Shown: positions 49,207-53,427 of the stretch, one piece after another | Layout: each line of letters opens with the position of its first letter | Position numbering within the stretch: position 1 is the stretch's first letter | Source of the DNA: Desulfovibrio sp. | GTDB taxonomy: Bacteria; Desulfobacterota; Desulfovibrionia; Desulfovibrionales; Desulfovibrionaceae | Reading direction: 5' to 3' | NCBI GenBank assembly: GCA_017454325.1 | Contig: JAFTDG010000114.1 | Location: forward strand, 1-53,427 | DNA: 53,427 nucleotides | Program-made: the position numbers and the translations under genes | Notes under the pieces: model-generated | What the model was told of the DNA's origin: nothing | Seen by the model: only the letters and a program-made list of their open reading frames with translations | The model's database searches: none

Positions 49207-49443
49207 GCGGTGTCGACAGCTTCACCTCTTAATTTCGTCTAGCGCTGTTTAACAAACGGGGCCACCTCTCCCATCTGCCGACAAAATGCAGCCTTGGTTT
49301 AACCGCGTTCTTCTCATAACTGGATATACTGAAGCTGCGCGTCGCGTTCTATGGTCATTGGAACCTCAGATACAATGATCAGAGGTCACTTTACCACTGA
49401 AAGCGCCTACGGCAAGATGGGGTTCTTAGGACGGTTACATAGC
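49207..49443. other. Intergenic region after secA
   Basis: 237 bp with no convincing gene. A 30-codon frame (49286-49378, starting MQPWFNRVLLITGY) has no ribosome site; it could be a chance frame or a gene remnant. No clear secA terminator was seen. Confidence 0.35.
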
Positions 49444-49479
49444 AAATATCCCCGGAGGGGAAACCCTCCAGGGATATTT
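49444..49479 (-). terminator. Terminator of the last flagellin gene
   Basis: AAATATCCC and GGAGGG (49444-49459) pair with CCCTCC and GGGATATTT (49464-49479) around GAAA, with one mismatch. On the minus strand TTTGCTATG follows. It lies 35 bp after the flagellin stop and may also end secA transcription. Confidence 0.75.
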
Positions 49480-49514
49480 GGGGAAACGTGCAGAAGCACT
49501 ATCCTCAACCAGTG

Positions 49515-50420
49515 CTAGCCAATGAGCTGCATAGCCATTTGCGGCATGCTGTTGGCCTGCGACAGCATGGCTACAGCAGACTGGGTGAGAATCTGGTTGC
49601 GGACAAACTTCGTCATTTCCGTGGCCACGTCCACATCGGAAATACGGGATTCCGCAGCCTGCAGGTTTTCAGTCTGCGTTGTCAGGTTGGAGATGGTATT
49701 CTCCAGCCGGTTCTGCAACGCACCCAGATGTGCACGAATCTTATCCTTGGAGACAACGGCATTGTTCAGACCCACCAGGGCGCTCTGCGCGGCCTGCTGC
49801 GTGGAGACCGTGTAGGCAAGCGACGTGGTCGCCGCCTGGTTACCCACACCCAGGGCCGACGCGGTGCTGGTGCCAATCTGAATGTAGTAGTAGTCTTCAG
49901 CAGAGTCATTCATATTGCCGAAGTGGACCTTCAGCTTGCCGCTGGAATCAAGCCCTCCTTCAGTACGGCCTGTGCCACTGCCGTCGTGCGTATCGCTGGA
50001 CAGGTTGCCGTTGAGCAGGTGGATGCCGTTGAAATCCGTAGCATTGGCAATTCGGGTGATTTCCGACGCCATGGCCTGGTATTCGGACTCGATCATCAGA
50101 CGCTGGGTAGAATCATAGGTACCTGTGGCCGCCTGTTCAGCCAGTTCCTTCATGCGGATCAGCTTTTCATCAATGATGCCCAGGGCACCGTCGGCAGTCT
50201 GGATGAGGGAAATAGCGTCGTTGGCATTGCGCACGCCCTGTTGCAGTGCAGCTATATCTGTACGCATCAATTCGCGGATGGCCAAGCCGGCCGCGTCGTC
50301 AGCAGCGCTGTTAACGCGCAAACCTGTGGACAGGCGCTGGGTTGATGTTTGCAGATTGCCGTAATGGTTGGTCAGGGTGTTGGCAACGTTGGTGGCCATT
50401 GAATTGTGATTAATATACAT
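49515..50420 (-). CDS. Flagellin, copy 1 (distal)
   Basis: 301 residues; filament subunit exported through the flagellar type III system. The conserved N-terminal D0/D1 helices (MYINHNSMATNVANTLTNHYGNLQTSTQRLSTGLRVNSAADDAAGLAIRELM region) and C-terminal helices (TENLQAAESRISDVDVATEMTKFVRNQIL) are complete. The middle domain is very short, with a variable Gly/Ser/Thr turn DTHDGSGTGRTEGGLDSS near 150. SNLTTQTENLQAAESRI is shared with its neighbours. It is the third of three tandem copies in transcription order. Its ribosome site lies in a hairpin loop (50422-50439). Confidence 0.96.
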   Translation of the reverse strand: MYINHNSMATNVANTLTNHYGNLQTSTQRLSTGLRVNSAADDAAGLAIRELMRTDIAALQQGVRNANDAISLIQTADGALGIIDEKLIRMKELAEQAATGTYDSTQRLMIESEYQAMASEITRIANATDFNGIHLLNGNLSSDTHDGSGTGRTEGGLDSSGKLKVHFGNMNDSAEDYYYIQIGTSTASALGVGNQAATTSLAYTVSTQQAAQSALVGLNNAVVSKDKIRAHLGALQNRLENTISNLTTQTENLQAAESRISDVDVATEMTKFVRNQILTQSAVAMLSQANSMPQMAMQLIG

Positions 50421-50421
50421 G

Positions 50422-50439
50422 ACATTCCTCCATGAATGT
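50422..50439 (-). promoter_or_regulatory. Hairpin presenting the ribosome site of flagellin copy 1
   Basis: On the minus strand ACATTC pairs with GAATGT (6 perfect bp) around the hexaloop ATGGAG, 1 nt before the ATG. GGA in a hexaloop over the ribosome site is the classic CsrA-binding form. Confidence 0.65.
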
Positions 50440-50734
50440 TCTGTCAGCCCGGCGGCGCACTGTGCGCGCCCGCTTCCCTGCGGACTTCCGCCGTTTGACC
50501 CGCAATGCGGGCCTGTGGTGTTTCAAACACACCCCTGCGTTACATAACAGGGGAAACCTTAGCCTCTGGCAAGTACCTCTTTGCATCGTGGTTTCAAGAG
50601 GCACTTTTTGCCTGAAAACCTGCACTCAAGTAGAAGCAGGAATCGTGCCAGAAGCAATGATAAAATACGTCATCTTTATGGCAGCCCGCGTGCAGCAAAG
50701 AGATATGGCAACTTTTCTATATCACAACAACCAG
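50440..50734. other. Flagellin copy 2-copy 1 spacer
   Basis: About 300 bp without a gene. It holds a short GGCA/TGCC hairpin with a 5-nt loop at 50610-50622 and no clear sigma28 or sigma54 promoter for copy 1, so that copy may be reached by read-through. Confidence 0.3.
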
Positions 50735-50778
50735 ATGGCACGAGCCCAAACAAGAAGGGGTCGGCAGGCTCGTGCCAT
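50735..50778 (-). terminator. Hairpin after flagellin copy 2
   Basis: ATGGCACGAGCC (50735-50746) pairs perfectly with GGCTCGTGCCAT (50767-50778) over a 20-nt loop. The following minus-strand bases CTGGTTGTTGTG are only partly T-rich, so termination may be partial. Confidence 0.65.
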
Positions 50779-50820
50779 ATTTCTGTCATAAAGATACTAT
50801 TGCAAGTAGGCAATCTCTGC

Positions 50821-51723
50821 CTAGCCGATGAGCTGCATGGCCAGCTGCGGCATGCTGTTAGCCTGTGAGAGCATGGCTACGGCAGACTGGGTAAGAATCT
50901 GGTTGCGCACAAACTGAGTCATTTCCCTAGCAACATCCACGTCAGAAATACGGGATTCTGCCGTCTGCAGGCTCTCTGTCTGTGTTGTCAGGTTGGAAAT
51001 GGTATTCTCCAGCCGGTTCTGCAACGCACCCAGATGTGCACGAATCTTATCCTTGGAGATGACGGCATTGTTCAGACCAACCAGGGCGCTCTGTGCAGCC
51101 TGCTGCGTGGAGACCGTGTAGGCCAGAGATGTACTGGCCGCCTGGTTGCCTACACCCAGGGCAGAGGCGGTGCTGGTGCCAATCTGAATGTAGTAGTAGT
51201 CTTCAGCAGAGTCATTCATATTGCCGAAGTGGACCTTCAGCTTGCCGCTGGAATCAAGCCCAGTCGTATGGCCTGAGCCATCACCAGTATGCGTATCACT
51301 GGACAGATTGCCGTTGAGCAGGTGTATCCCGTTGAAATCCGTGGCATTGGCGATTCGGGTTATTTCCGAAGCCATGGCCTGATATTCAGACTCGATCATC
51401 AGACGCTGGGTGGAATCATAGGTACCTGTGGCCGCCTGTTCCGCCAGCTCCTTCATGCGGATCAGCTTTTCGTCGATAATGCCCAGAGCACCGTCGGCAG
51501 TCTGGATAAGTGAAATGGCGTCGTTGGCATTACGCACACCCTGTTGCAGTGCAGCTATATCCGTACGCATTAGGGCGGCAATAGCGGAACCGGAAGCATC
51601 GTCAGCGGCGCTGTTGATACGCAGTCCCGTGGAGAGACGCTGGGTGGACGTCTGTAAATTGCTATAGTGTGATATCAGATTGTTGGCCACATTGGCGGCC
51701 ATGGCATTATGATTAATGTACAT
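50821..51723 (-). CDS. Flagellin, copy 2 (middle)
   Basis: 300 residues. Same layout as copy 1 and nearly identical to it in the central half (HFGNMNDSAEDYYYIQIG and the flanks). It differs in the N-terminal helix, where copies 1 and 3 read DDAAGLAIRELMRTD and this one reads DDASGSAIAALMRTD, losing the conserved LAIRE block. The variable turn is DTHTGDGSGHTTGLDSS. C-terminal REMTQFVRNQIL is normal. Start ATG immediately follows the hairpin 51724-51743. Export and assembly signals look intact, but the N-terminal change could affect filament packing. Confidence 0.95.
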   Translation of the reverse strand: MYINHNAMAANVANNLISHYSNLQTSTQRLSTGLRINSAADDASGSAIAALMRTDIAALQQGVRNANDAISLIQTADGALGIIDEKLIRMKELAEQAATGTYDSTQRLMIESEYQAMASEITRIANATDFNGIHLLNGNLSSDTHTGDGSGHTTGLDSSGKLKVHFGNMNDSAEDYYYIQIGTSTASALGVGNQAASTSLAYTVSTQQAAQSALVGLNNAVISKDKIRAHLGALQNRLENTISNLTTQTESLQTAESRISDVDVAREMTQFVRNQILTQSAVAMLSQANSMPQLAMQLIG

Positions 51724-51743
51724 GGCGTTCCTCCGCAAACGCC
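51724..51743 (-). promoter_or_regulatory. Hairpin presenting the ribosome site of flagellin copy 2
   Basis: On the minus strand GGCGTTT pairs with GAACGCC (6 Watson-Crick plus one T-G pair) around the hexaloop GCGGAG, directly before the ATG. Stem sequence is unlike copies 1 and 3, yet pairing and loop size are kept. Confidence 0.7.
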
Positions 51744-51797
51744 AAATCCTGTCGGCCGGCATGCAAAGCGCAACCCGACAAGAGGACGTGGTCTGGC

Positions 51798-51840
51798 TAT
51801 GCGCAGAAGCAGAACTTACTCTGTTCTGCTTCTGCGCATA
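51798..51840 (-). terminator. Perfect 18-bp hairpin after flagellin copy 3
   Basis: Arms 51798-51815 and 51823-51840 are perfectly complementary (start TATGCGCAGAAG, 7-nt loop). It lies 70 bp after the stop of copy 3. There is no T run on the minus strand, so it may protect or process the message rather than end it. Confidence 0.65.
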
Positions 51841-51909
51841 ATTGCGACCCTGAAGTTCTCCCCTGCTTCAGGGCCAGATCGGGCCAGAAGCCCTCCCCGC
51901 AATGATTGC

Positions 51910-52812
51910 CTAGCCGATGAGCTGCATGGCAAGTTGCGACATGCTGTTTGCCTGTGACAGCATAGCTACGGCAGACTGCGTGAGGATCTGGTTACGGACG
52001 AACTGTGTCATTTCCGTAGCCACGTCCACATCAGAAATGCGCGATTCAGCTGCCTGCAGGTTCTCCGCCTGCGTGGTCAGATTGGAAATGGTGTTCTCCA
52101 GCCTGTTCTGCATGGCACCCAAGTGCGCACGGATCTTGTCCTTGGAGACAATGGCATGGTTCAGCCCCACAAGAGCACTCTGTGCTGCCTGCTGCGTGGA
52201 AACCGTATAGGCCAAGGACGTGCTGGCTGCCTGATTGCCCACACCCAAAGAAGACGCAGTACTATTGCCAATCTGGATGTAGTAGTAATCTTCCGCAGAA
52301 TCGTTGGCCGTGCCGAAATGTATCTTCAACTTGCCTGTGGAATCAATTCCAGACGTATTGCCATTGCCACTGCCGTTGTGCGTATCGCTGGACAGGTTGC
52401 CGTTGAGCAGGTGGATGCCGTTGAAATCCGTGGCATTGGCAATTCGGGTGATTTCCGACGCCATGGCCTGGTATTCGGACTCGATCATCAGACGCTGGGT
52501 GGAATCATAGGTACCTGTGGCCGCCTGTTCCGCCAGCTCCTTCATGCGGATCAGCTTTTCATCGATGATGCCTAAAGCGCCATCGGCTGTCTGGATGAGG
52601 GAAATGGCGTCATTGGCATTGCGCACACCCTGGTTCAATGCGGCAATGTCCGTACGCATCAGTTCGCGAATGGCCAGACCGGCTGCATCGTCAGCGGAAG
52701 AATTGACGCGCAGACCTGTGGACAGTCGCTGCGTGGATGTCTGCAGATTGCTGTAGTGCGCTGCCAGGTTATTGCTGACATTGGCAGCCATGGTATTGTG
52801 ATTGAGATACAT
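51910..52812 (-). CDS. Flagellin, copy 3 (promoter-proximal)
   Basis: 300 residues. First of the three copies to be transcribed. N-terminal MYLNHNTMAANVSNNLAAHYSNLQTS region and DDAAGLAIRELMRTDIAAL are standard, as is the C-terminus. The central part differs most from the other two: LKIHFGTANDSAEDYYYIQIGNSTASSLG and variable turn DTHNGSGNGNTSGIDST. A sigma28-like promoter lies about 80 bp upstream, and the ribosome site is in a hairpin loop. Start chosen as the ATG after the hairpin; an ATG 4 codons earlier lies within the hairpin. Confidence 0.95.
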   Translation of the reverse strand: MYLNHNTMAANVSNNLAAHYSNLQTSTQRLSTGLRVNSSADDAAGLAIRELMRTDIAALNQGVRNANDAISLIQTADGALGIIDEKLIRMKELAEQAATGTYDSTQRLMIESEYQAMASEITRIANATDFNGIHLLNGNLSSDTHNGSGNGNTSGIDSTGKLKIHFGTANDSAEDYYYIQIGNSTASSLGVGNQAASTSLAYTVSTQQAAQSALVGLNHAIVSKDKIRAHLGAMQNRLENTISNLTTQAENLQAAESRISDVDVATEMTQFVRNQILTQSAVAMLSQANSMSQLAMQLIG

Positions 52813-52830
52813 ACATTCCTCCATGAATGC
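52813..52830 (-). promoter_or_regulatory. Hairpin presenting the ribosome site of flagellin copy 3
   Basis: On the minus strand GCATTC pairs with GAATGT (5 Watson-Crick plus one G-T) around the hexaloop ATGGAG, directly before the ATG. Confidence 0.65.
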
Positions 52831-52892
52831 TGTATGTCACAGGCGGCGCGAAATGCCGACGCTTCCATGCGTGCTACCGCCTCTTGCCCGTC

Positions 52893-52920
52893 CTATCGGT
52901 TGTCTGAATGGAAAGCATTA
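52893..52920 (-). promoter_or_regulatory. Sigma28 (FliA)-like flagellin promoter
   Basis: On the minus strand TAAT (52920-52917), 16 nt, then ACCGATAG (52900-52893). Consensus is TAAA, 15 nt, GCCGATAA, so two mismatches in the -10 and one extra spacer base. Position about 80 bp before flagellin copy 3 fits. Confidence 0.5.
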
Positions 52921-52930
52921 GGGGAAAACG

Positions 52931-52974
52931 GGAAAAATTTTCCTACTTTTCCCTCAAAAAAGGAAAATTTTTCC
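52931..52974. repeat. Pair of A/T-core palindromes
   Basis: GGAAAAATTTTCC (52931-52943) and its exact reverse complement GGAAAATTTTTCC (52962-52974), 18 bp apart. They can form one 13-bp stem or two separate near-palindromes just upstream of the flagellin promoter. Confidence 0.6.
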
Positions 52975-53036
52975 GGGGTACCTGCGCAATAGCATAAATG
53001 GCAAGGTTAGAAAAAAACGAAATAATAGAGATGGAA

Positions 53037-53070
53037 ATGCCGCAATGACATTCTACGGACACTGCGGCAT
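53037..53070 (-). terminator. Terminator after the GAPDH gene
   Basis: ATGCCGCA (53037-53044) pairs with TGCGGCAT (53063-53070) over an 18-nt loop. On the minus strand TTTCC follows. It lies 80 bp after the GAPDH stop. Confidence 0.5.
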
Positions 53071-53150
53071 CAATGATACGAACAGAAAGACACCATTGCG
53101 CCGGTCTCCTTTTCGCACTAAAGCAACCGGCACATGGCATCTACTATATA

Positions 53151-53427
53151 TCAGCAATCCTTACCGACCATTTTAATCACTCTGTACAACTGGTTAGTAA
53201 AACCGGCTTCGTTATCATACCAAAGCAAGAGCTTGACCATGGTCTTATCCATGACCTGTGTGGAAAGAGCGTCTACCACGCCGCCGTAGGTACTTCCCCT
53301 GTAGTCAATGGAAACCAACGGTTCGTCAGAATAGCCCATATTTTCCTTGAGCGGGCCTTCGCTGGCCGCCTTGAGTGCCGCATTGACTTCTTCTGCGGTG
53401 CAGGGCTTCTCCACTTCACAGGTCAGA
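53151..53427 (-). CDS. Glyceraldehyde-3-phosphate dehydrogenase, C-terminal part
   Basis: The last 91 residues of a type I GAPDH; the gene continues past the right edge, so the NAD domain and catalytic Cys are not visible. TCEVEKPCTAEEVNAALK, GPLKENMGYSDEPLVSIDYRGSTYGGVVDALST and VKLLLWYDNEAGFTNQLYRVIKMV match the catalytic domain end, with the WYDNE block that helps bind NAD. Glycolytic or gluconeogenic enzyme of the cytoplasm. The ending DNEAGFTNQLYRV differs from the usual DNEWGYSNRV form, so this may be a GAPDH subtype; gapA versus another gap gene cannot be decided. Confidence 0.9.
   Translation of the reverse strand, partial: LTCEVEKPCTAEEVNAALKAASEGPLKENMGYSDEPLVSIDYRGSTYGGVVDALSTQVMDKTMVKLLLWYDNEAGFTNQLYRVIKMVGKDC

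Follow-up and report, generated by a model that had tools for sequence, protein, structure and literature searches.

In several bacteria, flagellin synthesis is controlled at the leader of the flagellin mRNA by the RNA-binding protein CsrA. The two-hairpin CsrA arrangement of the C. jejuni flaA leader has been shown experimentally, and the report on it describes two stem-loops with ANGGA hexaloops, of which the second covers the ribosome site, in a sigma28 gene for which relatives carry compensatory changes and FliW is present; the ANGGA hexaloop is given there as the reported form of CsrA/RsmE targets (PMC4894983). The B. subtilis hag leader (BS1/BS2, in the CsrA-FliW-Hag system) likewise has two CsrA sites, one of them over the ribosome site, and csrA and fliW are neighbours. 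In C. difficile, the fliC 5' UTR (CBS1/CBS2) has two predicted hairpins, the second of which lies over the ribosome site and is needed for CsrA control (PMC11898703). CsrA of E. coli bridges two sites that are 10-63 nt apart (PMC7652899). We describe an arrangement similar to these three in the flagellin leaders of a Desulfovibrio species.

The minus strand of the 53-kb window (the whole stretch of DNA that was analysed, contig C62) carries three tandem flagellin genes, C, B and A, with ATGs at 52812, 51723 and 50420, that are 90-92% identical to one another (Table 1). Hairpins that an earlier note had reported at all three starts are present letter for letter, with the GGAGG of each gene divided between loop and stem. 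The placement directly before the start codon described in that note holds for B and C, but in A one C separates the hairpin from the ATG. On both strands of the window, we counted hairpins that have a six-base loop with GGA as its third to fifth bases, a stem of 6 bp or more and no more than one G-U pair. Five were found, and the three with a GGAGG and a nearby ATG are exactly the three flagellin starts, where 0.05 would be expected under a first-order Markov null; a chance origin of the start-site hairpins is thereby ruled out. One further hairpin of the five is the gene A upstream hairpin considered below. The minimum free energies of 61-64-nt windows at the hairpins are ordinary (z-scores of -0.3 to -0.4).

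The start-site hairpin, here called P4, differs between A and C by a single change: the outermost pair is A-U in A and G-U in C. Between A and B there are two compensated pairs (A-U to G-C in both), one change from C-G to U-G and one extra G-C pair; outside this genome, the compensated pairs are seen only in its closest relative (L037). Pairing is thus kept among the three stems, as had been claimed, but the covariation is modest and, for P4 alone, weaker evidence than the earlier note took it to be. Between flagellins C and B, a perfect long hairpin (ATGCGCAGAAGCAGAAC ... GTTCTGCTTCTGCGCAT) without a T-run occupies positions 51799-51839; it may serve in transcript processing or stability and not in termination.

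Table 1. Positions of the flagellin genes, leader elements and second candidate target. Positions are those of the window unless a locus is named; loops are in brackets.
Feature	Position	Strand	Description
Flagellin gene A	49515..50420	-	301-aa ORF; matches full-length flagellins of relatives
Gene A P4	50422..50439	-	ACATTC[ATGGAG]GAATGT, then C-ATG; GGAGG 6 nt before ATG; -4.2 kcal/mol
Gene A upstream element	50450..50493	-	P1 CGGCGG/CCGCCG around hairpins P2 and P3
Gene A P2, CsrA-type hairpin	50468..50485	-	GTCCGC[AGGGAA]GCGGGC
Flagellin gene B	50821..51723	-	ATG 51723 taken as start in preference to that of the longer ORF (51762); 92% identical to A
Gene B start-site hairpin	51724..51743	-	GGCGTTT[GCGGAG]GAACGCC, abuts ATG; -9.2 kcal/mol; loop non-canonical
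Gene B possible upstream hairpin	51741..51756	-	GCCGA[CAGGAT]TTGGC; weak, overlaps start-site stem
Flagellin gene C	51910..52812	-	First in tandem
Gene C P4	52813..52830	-	GCATTC[ATGGAG]GAATGT, abuts ATG; -4.5 kcal/mol
Gene C upstream element	52841..52882	-	P1 AGGCGG/CCGCCT around P2 and P3 region
Gene C P2, CsrA-type hairpin	52859..52872	-	ACGC[ATGGAA]GCGT
Gene C sigma28-like promoter	52893..52920	-	TAAT-N16-ACCGATAG; just upstream of P1
Unannotated ~94-aa gene	L128:1578-1862 (G000:C148)	+	Sigma28-like promoter, two-hexaloop leader

In the leaders of A and C, the start-site hairpin is part of an approximately 85-nt element of four helices: an outer helix P1, the upstream loop P2, the small P3 and the start-site P4. 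The earlier note covered half of this element and mentions neither the second hairpin nor the outer helix around it. P2 is a second hexaloop hairpin of the form ANGGAN and lies 46 nt (A) and 44 nt (C) upstream of the start-site hairpin. For the leader of A (86 nt), the predicted fold is the P1-P4 scheme, with a z-score of -3.27 relative to shuffles; the fold of the gene C leader is less distinctive (z = -1.35). Relatives have sigma28-like promoters with the canonical N15 spacer, at the same distance as in gene C, in most first-gene leaders, and the genome encodes a FliA-type sigma factor. From the position of the sigma28-like promoter close before P1, transcription is predicted to start within a few nucleotides of this helix, and the leader in this genome extends over about 75 nt from the predicted start.

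A comparison of the leaders of about 90 flagellins, from this genome and 60 related genomes, revealed that nearly all leaders of the flagellin class starting MYINHN or similar keep P1, P2 and P4. A covariance model (R1) built from 36 leaders and run on 198 related genomes has matches in 66 of them, from 12 genera. In the genome studied here, R1 scores strongly only at A (50418-50506, 93.6 bits) and C (52810-52896, 84.2 bits); two weak matches (L126 and L127), neither of which ends at an ATG, were set aside. A motif search of the same genome that allowed up to two mismatches gave exact matches only at gene A, gene C and the unannotated gene of about 94 codons listed in Table 1. Rfam (release 15) gave no relevant match in 49400-53427 even at E values up to 10, which excludes a known Rfam element; the leader is in no curated Rfam family.

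The structure is supported by base-pair changes among relatives. In 85 realigned leaders, 98.1% of cells are paired, compared with 28-55% in slid controls. Double changes occur in 12 of 17 pairs (mean of 4.7 in shuffles, 2-5 in slid controls), and doubly changed cells number 84 against 14.9 in shuffles, counts that are not probabilities, given that the sequences are related and that the structure guided the fitting of this alignment (A2). In a structure-free MAFFT alignment, double changes are seen in 6 pairs, and 13 sequences have them at the outermost pair of P1. Aligning the leaders of relatives, which the earlier note had proposed as a check, brought out strong covariation in the enclosing helix across a family of bacteria. 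P4 itself is conserved more than it covaries: in the 85 leaders its four inner pairs are essentially unchanged, and double changes are confined to the two outer pairs.

Leaders outside this pattern were also seen. Flagellins of other families of the order (L097-L123) have simpler pairs of GGA hairpins, such as GGAATGGC[AAGGAC]GCCGTTTC in L101, which suggests that the switch is older than the scaffold. In L052 (from G032, a genome that is 86% complete), P4 is kept and the upstream GGA loop is lost; csrA was found in this genome and fliW was not. A hairpin ACATTC[AGGGAG]GAATGT precedes the ATG of a frame starting MQKTSCAA in L175, L180 and L182. A fourth flagellin of the genome (L033, G000:C123) is of the LV type. 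Its promoter is sigma54-like (TGGCAC...CTGC), and the hairpin over its ribosome site, ACACCAGGAGGTGT, is short, with only 4 bp. L033 and the other flagellins of the LV type that have sigma54-like promoters did not show the two-hairpin leader; some have a 4-bp stem under a CAGGAG hexaloop, and most have no stem of at least 4 bp.

The two loops of the element differ in what they say about CsrA. The P4 loops of the 85 leaders fit ANGGAN (85/85), but a P4 loop must hold the ribosome site, and the GGAG in it is little guide to CsrA. The P2 loops are free of that constraint, yet they retain GGA in 84/84 cases and A at position 1 in 83/84, with positions 2 and 6 free; this A-N-GGA-N pattern is the CsrA signature. 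The distance from GGA to GGA is 44-46 nt in 72 of the 85 leaders, which is inside the bridging range of E. coli CsrA cited above.

Both proteins of the switch are encoded in the genome. A single csrA and a single fliW are adjacent on contig C54, with the start of fliW inside the end of csrA; in systems of this kind, fliW is usually found near csrA. The csrA product has 80 aa and matches Pfam (78 bits) and an NCBIfam equivalog above its cut-off, and the fliW product matches the NCBIfam FliW equivalog above cut-off. Both proteins match chains of a solved CsrA-FliW complex (5dmb). In known systems, FliW binds CsrA at a C-terminal extension that follows a core of about 60 residues; the CsrA encoded here aligns with the CsrA of that complex to residue 67 and has Asn at position 55. 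The 37 genomes of the genus include eight that have no strong flagellin match (G003, G006, G008, G009, G015, G029, G030 and G035), and in all eight both csrA and fliW are missing. Departures are found in incomplete genomes: G011 and G012 have flagellin with no csrA or fliW match, G022 has no csrA and G032 no fliW. Since csrA and fliW are missing together from flagellin-less genomes, CsrA in this genus appears to be tied to the flagellum. One relative has a second csrA-fliW pair (58210-58832) between two tandem flagellin genes (G026:C46:56471-59859).

A second candidate target is the gene of about 94 codons. Its leader contains two hexaloop hairpins, TTGC[AAGGAA]GCAG and CCATTC[ACGGAG]GAATGG, 20 nt apart. 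In the 61 genomes searched, the gene is restricted to the genus and, there, to genomes that have flagellin matches. In 19 of 19 named relatives it is preceded by the start-site hairpin and, farther upstream, by a hairpin-like GGGA/AGGA site, and the leader is more conserved than the protein, which falls to 34-40% identity in relatives. The protein has no family match in Pfam or NCBIfam, and its predicted structure is a low-confidence three-helix model (mean pLDDT 62.4, pTM 0.29). FlgM, which is encoded at a different place, is a separate protein. We regard this gene as the most useful lead from the finding.

Taken together, the adjacent csrA and fliW, the second ANGGAN hairpin at a near-fixed distance and the covariation of the enclosing helix support the earlier reading of the leader as a functional RNA that answers to CsrA and FliW. 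The leaders of A and C, and that of B in a divergent form, are very probably CsrA-binding translational control elements of CsrA-FliW flagellin homeostasis. Given a CsrA-shaped loop over the ribosome site and a second CsrA-type loop in the same conserved RNA, flagellin synthesis is probably stopped by a CsrA-FliW switch. By analogy with B. subtilis, C. jejuni and C. difficile, a CsrA dimer would bind the P2 hexaloop with one face and the P4 loop over the ribosome site with the other, and initiation would be blocked. FliW, encoded beside csrA, would take CsrA off the leader during flagellin export; unexported flagellin would then accumulate and sequester FliW, leaving CsrA to switch translation off once more. 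P1 and P3 would serve as the scaffold that sets the distance between the loops at about 44-46 nt.

Gene B may stand apart from this scheme. Its leader has no P1-P3, and its loop, GCGGAG, is off the ANGGAN consensus in that it lacks the A at position 1. The upstream GGA is paired away in the minimum free energy fold, from which the possible upstream hairpin is missing, and it is doubtful whether this leader offers two GGA sites. Gene B may depend less on CsrA or be more weakly regulated, and its translation is perhaps limited by its own hairpin.

Could the hairpin act without a protein, hiding part of the ribosome site so as to tune or temperature-gate flagellin translation? The partition of GGAGG between loop and stem in all three genes fits this idea, as does gene B, in which a strong stem carries a loop that is not CsrA-like. 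The stems of A and C are weak, however, and a protein-free hairpin leaves unexplained the upstream ANGGAN hairpin, the signature of the P2 loop, the fixed spacing and the fact that species without flagellins lack csrA and fliW alike; we consider it improbable. Mere paralogy, in which the hairpin is a functionless feature common to recent duplicates, would agree with the high identity of the three genes and with a P4 that is nearly invariant in the genus. Yet the upstream and linker sequences have diverged while the 5' arm of P4 has been kept: CATTC is invariant in 36/36 sequences as the linker varies. Since this arm has no part in coding or in the ribosome site, such constancy argues for function. 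Moreover, P1 covaries, ACATTC/GAATGT is replaced by AATATTC/GAATATT in other genera, and a non-flagellin gene has CCATTC/GAATGG. Plain duplication was rejected on the covariation and on the forms in other, distant genera, and a functionless hairpin is hardly credible.

The leaders might instead act mainly as CsrA sponges or mRNA-stability elements, with abundant flagellin mRNA titrating CsrA from other flagellar genes and translation control being secondary. The C. jejuni flaA leader also titrates CsrA (PMC4894983), and another gene with a sigma28-like promoter here has CsrA-type hairpins and could be a titrated target. Against a primarily titrating role, nearly all leaders have one of their two sites precisely at the ribosome site, the position that direct control of translation would call for. 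Both roles could coexist, and we judge it quite unlikely that titration or stability is the principal one.

These leaders are assigned to a kind of system that is already known. What is new to the literature searched is the scaffold, together with the spacing, the taxon and the second target; we found no paper there that joins CsrA, FliW and Desulfovibrio. The C. jejuni flaA 5' UTR, from a phylum unrelated to that of this genome, is 45 nt long with a GGA spacing of 21 nt, compared with about 75 nt and 44-46 nt here, and the accessible part of its report describes no enclosing helix, in contrast to P1 and P3 here (PMC4894983). B. subtilis has a single flagellin gene and the gene order fliW-csrA rather than csrA-fliW (PMC6529632), and a scaffold like P1/P3 is not reported for hag in the literature searched. 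The C. difficile fliC leader is unlike those described here in sequence and spacing, and its first site is dispensable in a reporter (PMC11898703). We tentatively propose, while leaning slightly towards doubt, that the helix-enclosed scaffold, which holds two CsrA hexaloops about 45 nt apart on flagellin mRNAs from Desulfovibrio and related genera, and the compact version with 20-nt spacing on the ~94-aa gene form a new structured class of CsrA-target RNA, through which one CsrA-FliW switch would serve several flagellins and an unknown flagellar protein, with CsrA dedicated to the flagellum in the genus and absent from flagellin-less species.

These observations thus extend the predicted reach of the CsrA-FliW flagellin switch, with evidence at the level of base pairs, to sulfate-reducing gut bacteria. 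With two spacings and three paralogous leaders, one of which has a non-canonical loop, the system would provide a natural series for CsrA two-site bridging, and it highlights a candidate for an unknown flagellar gene that was pointed out by its leader rather than by its protein sequence.
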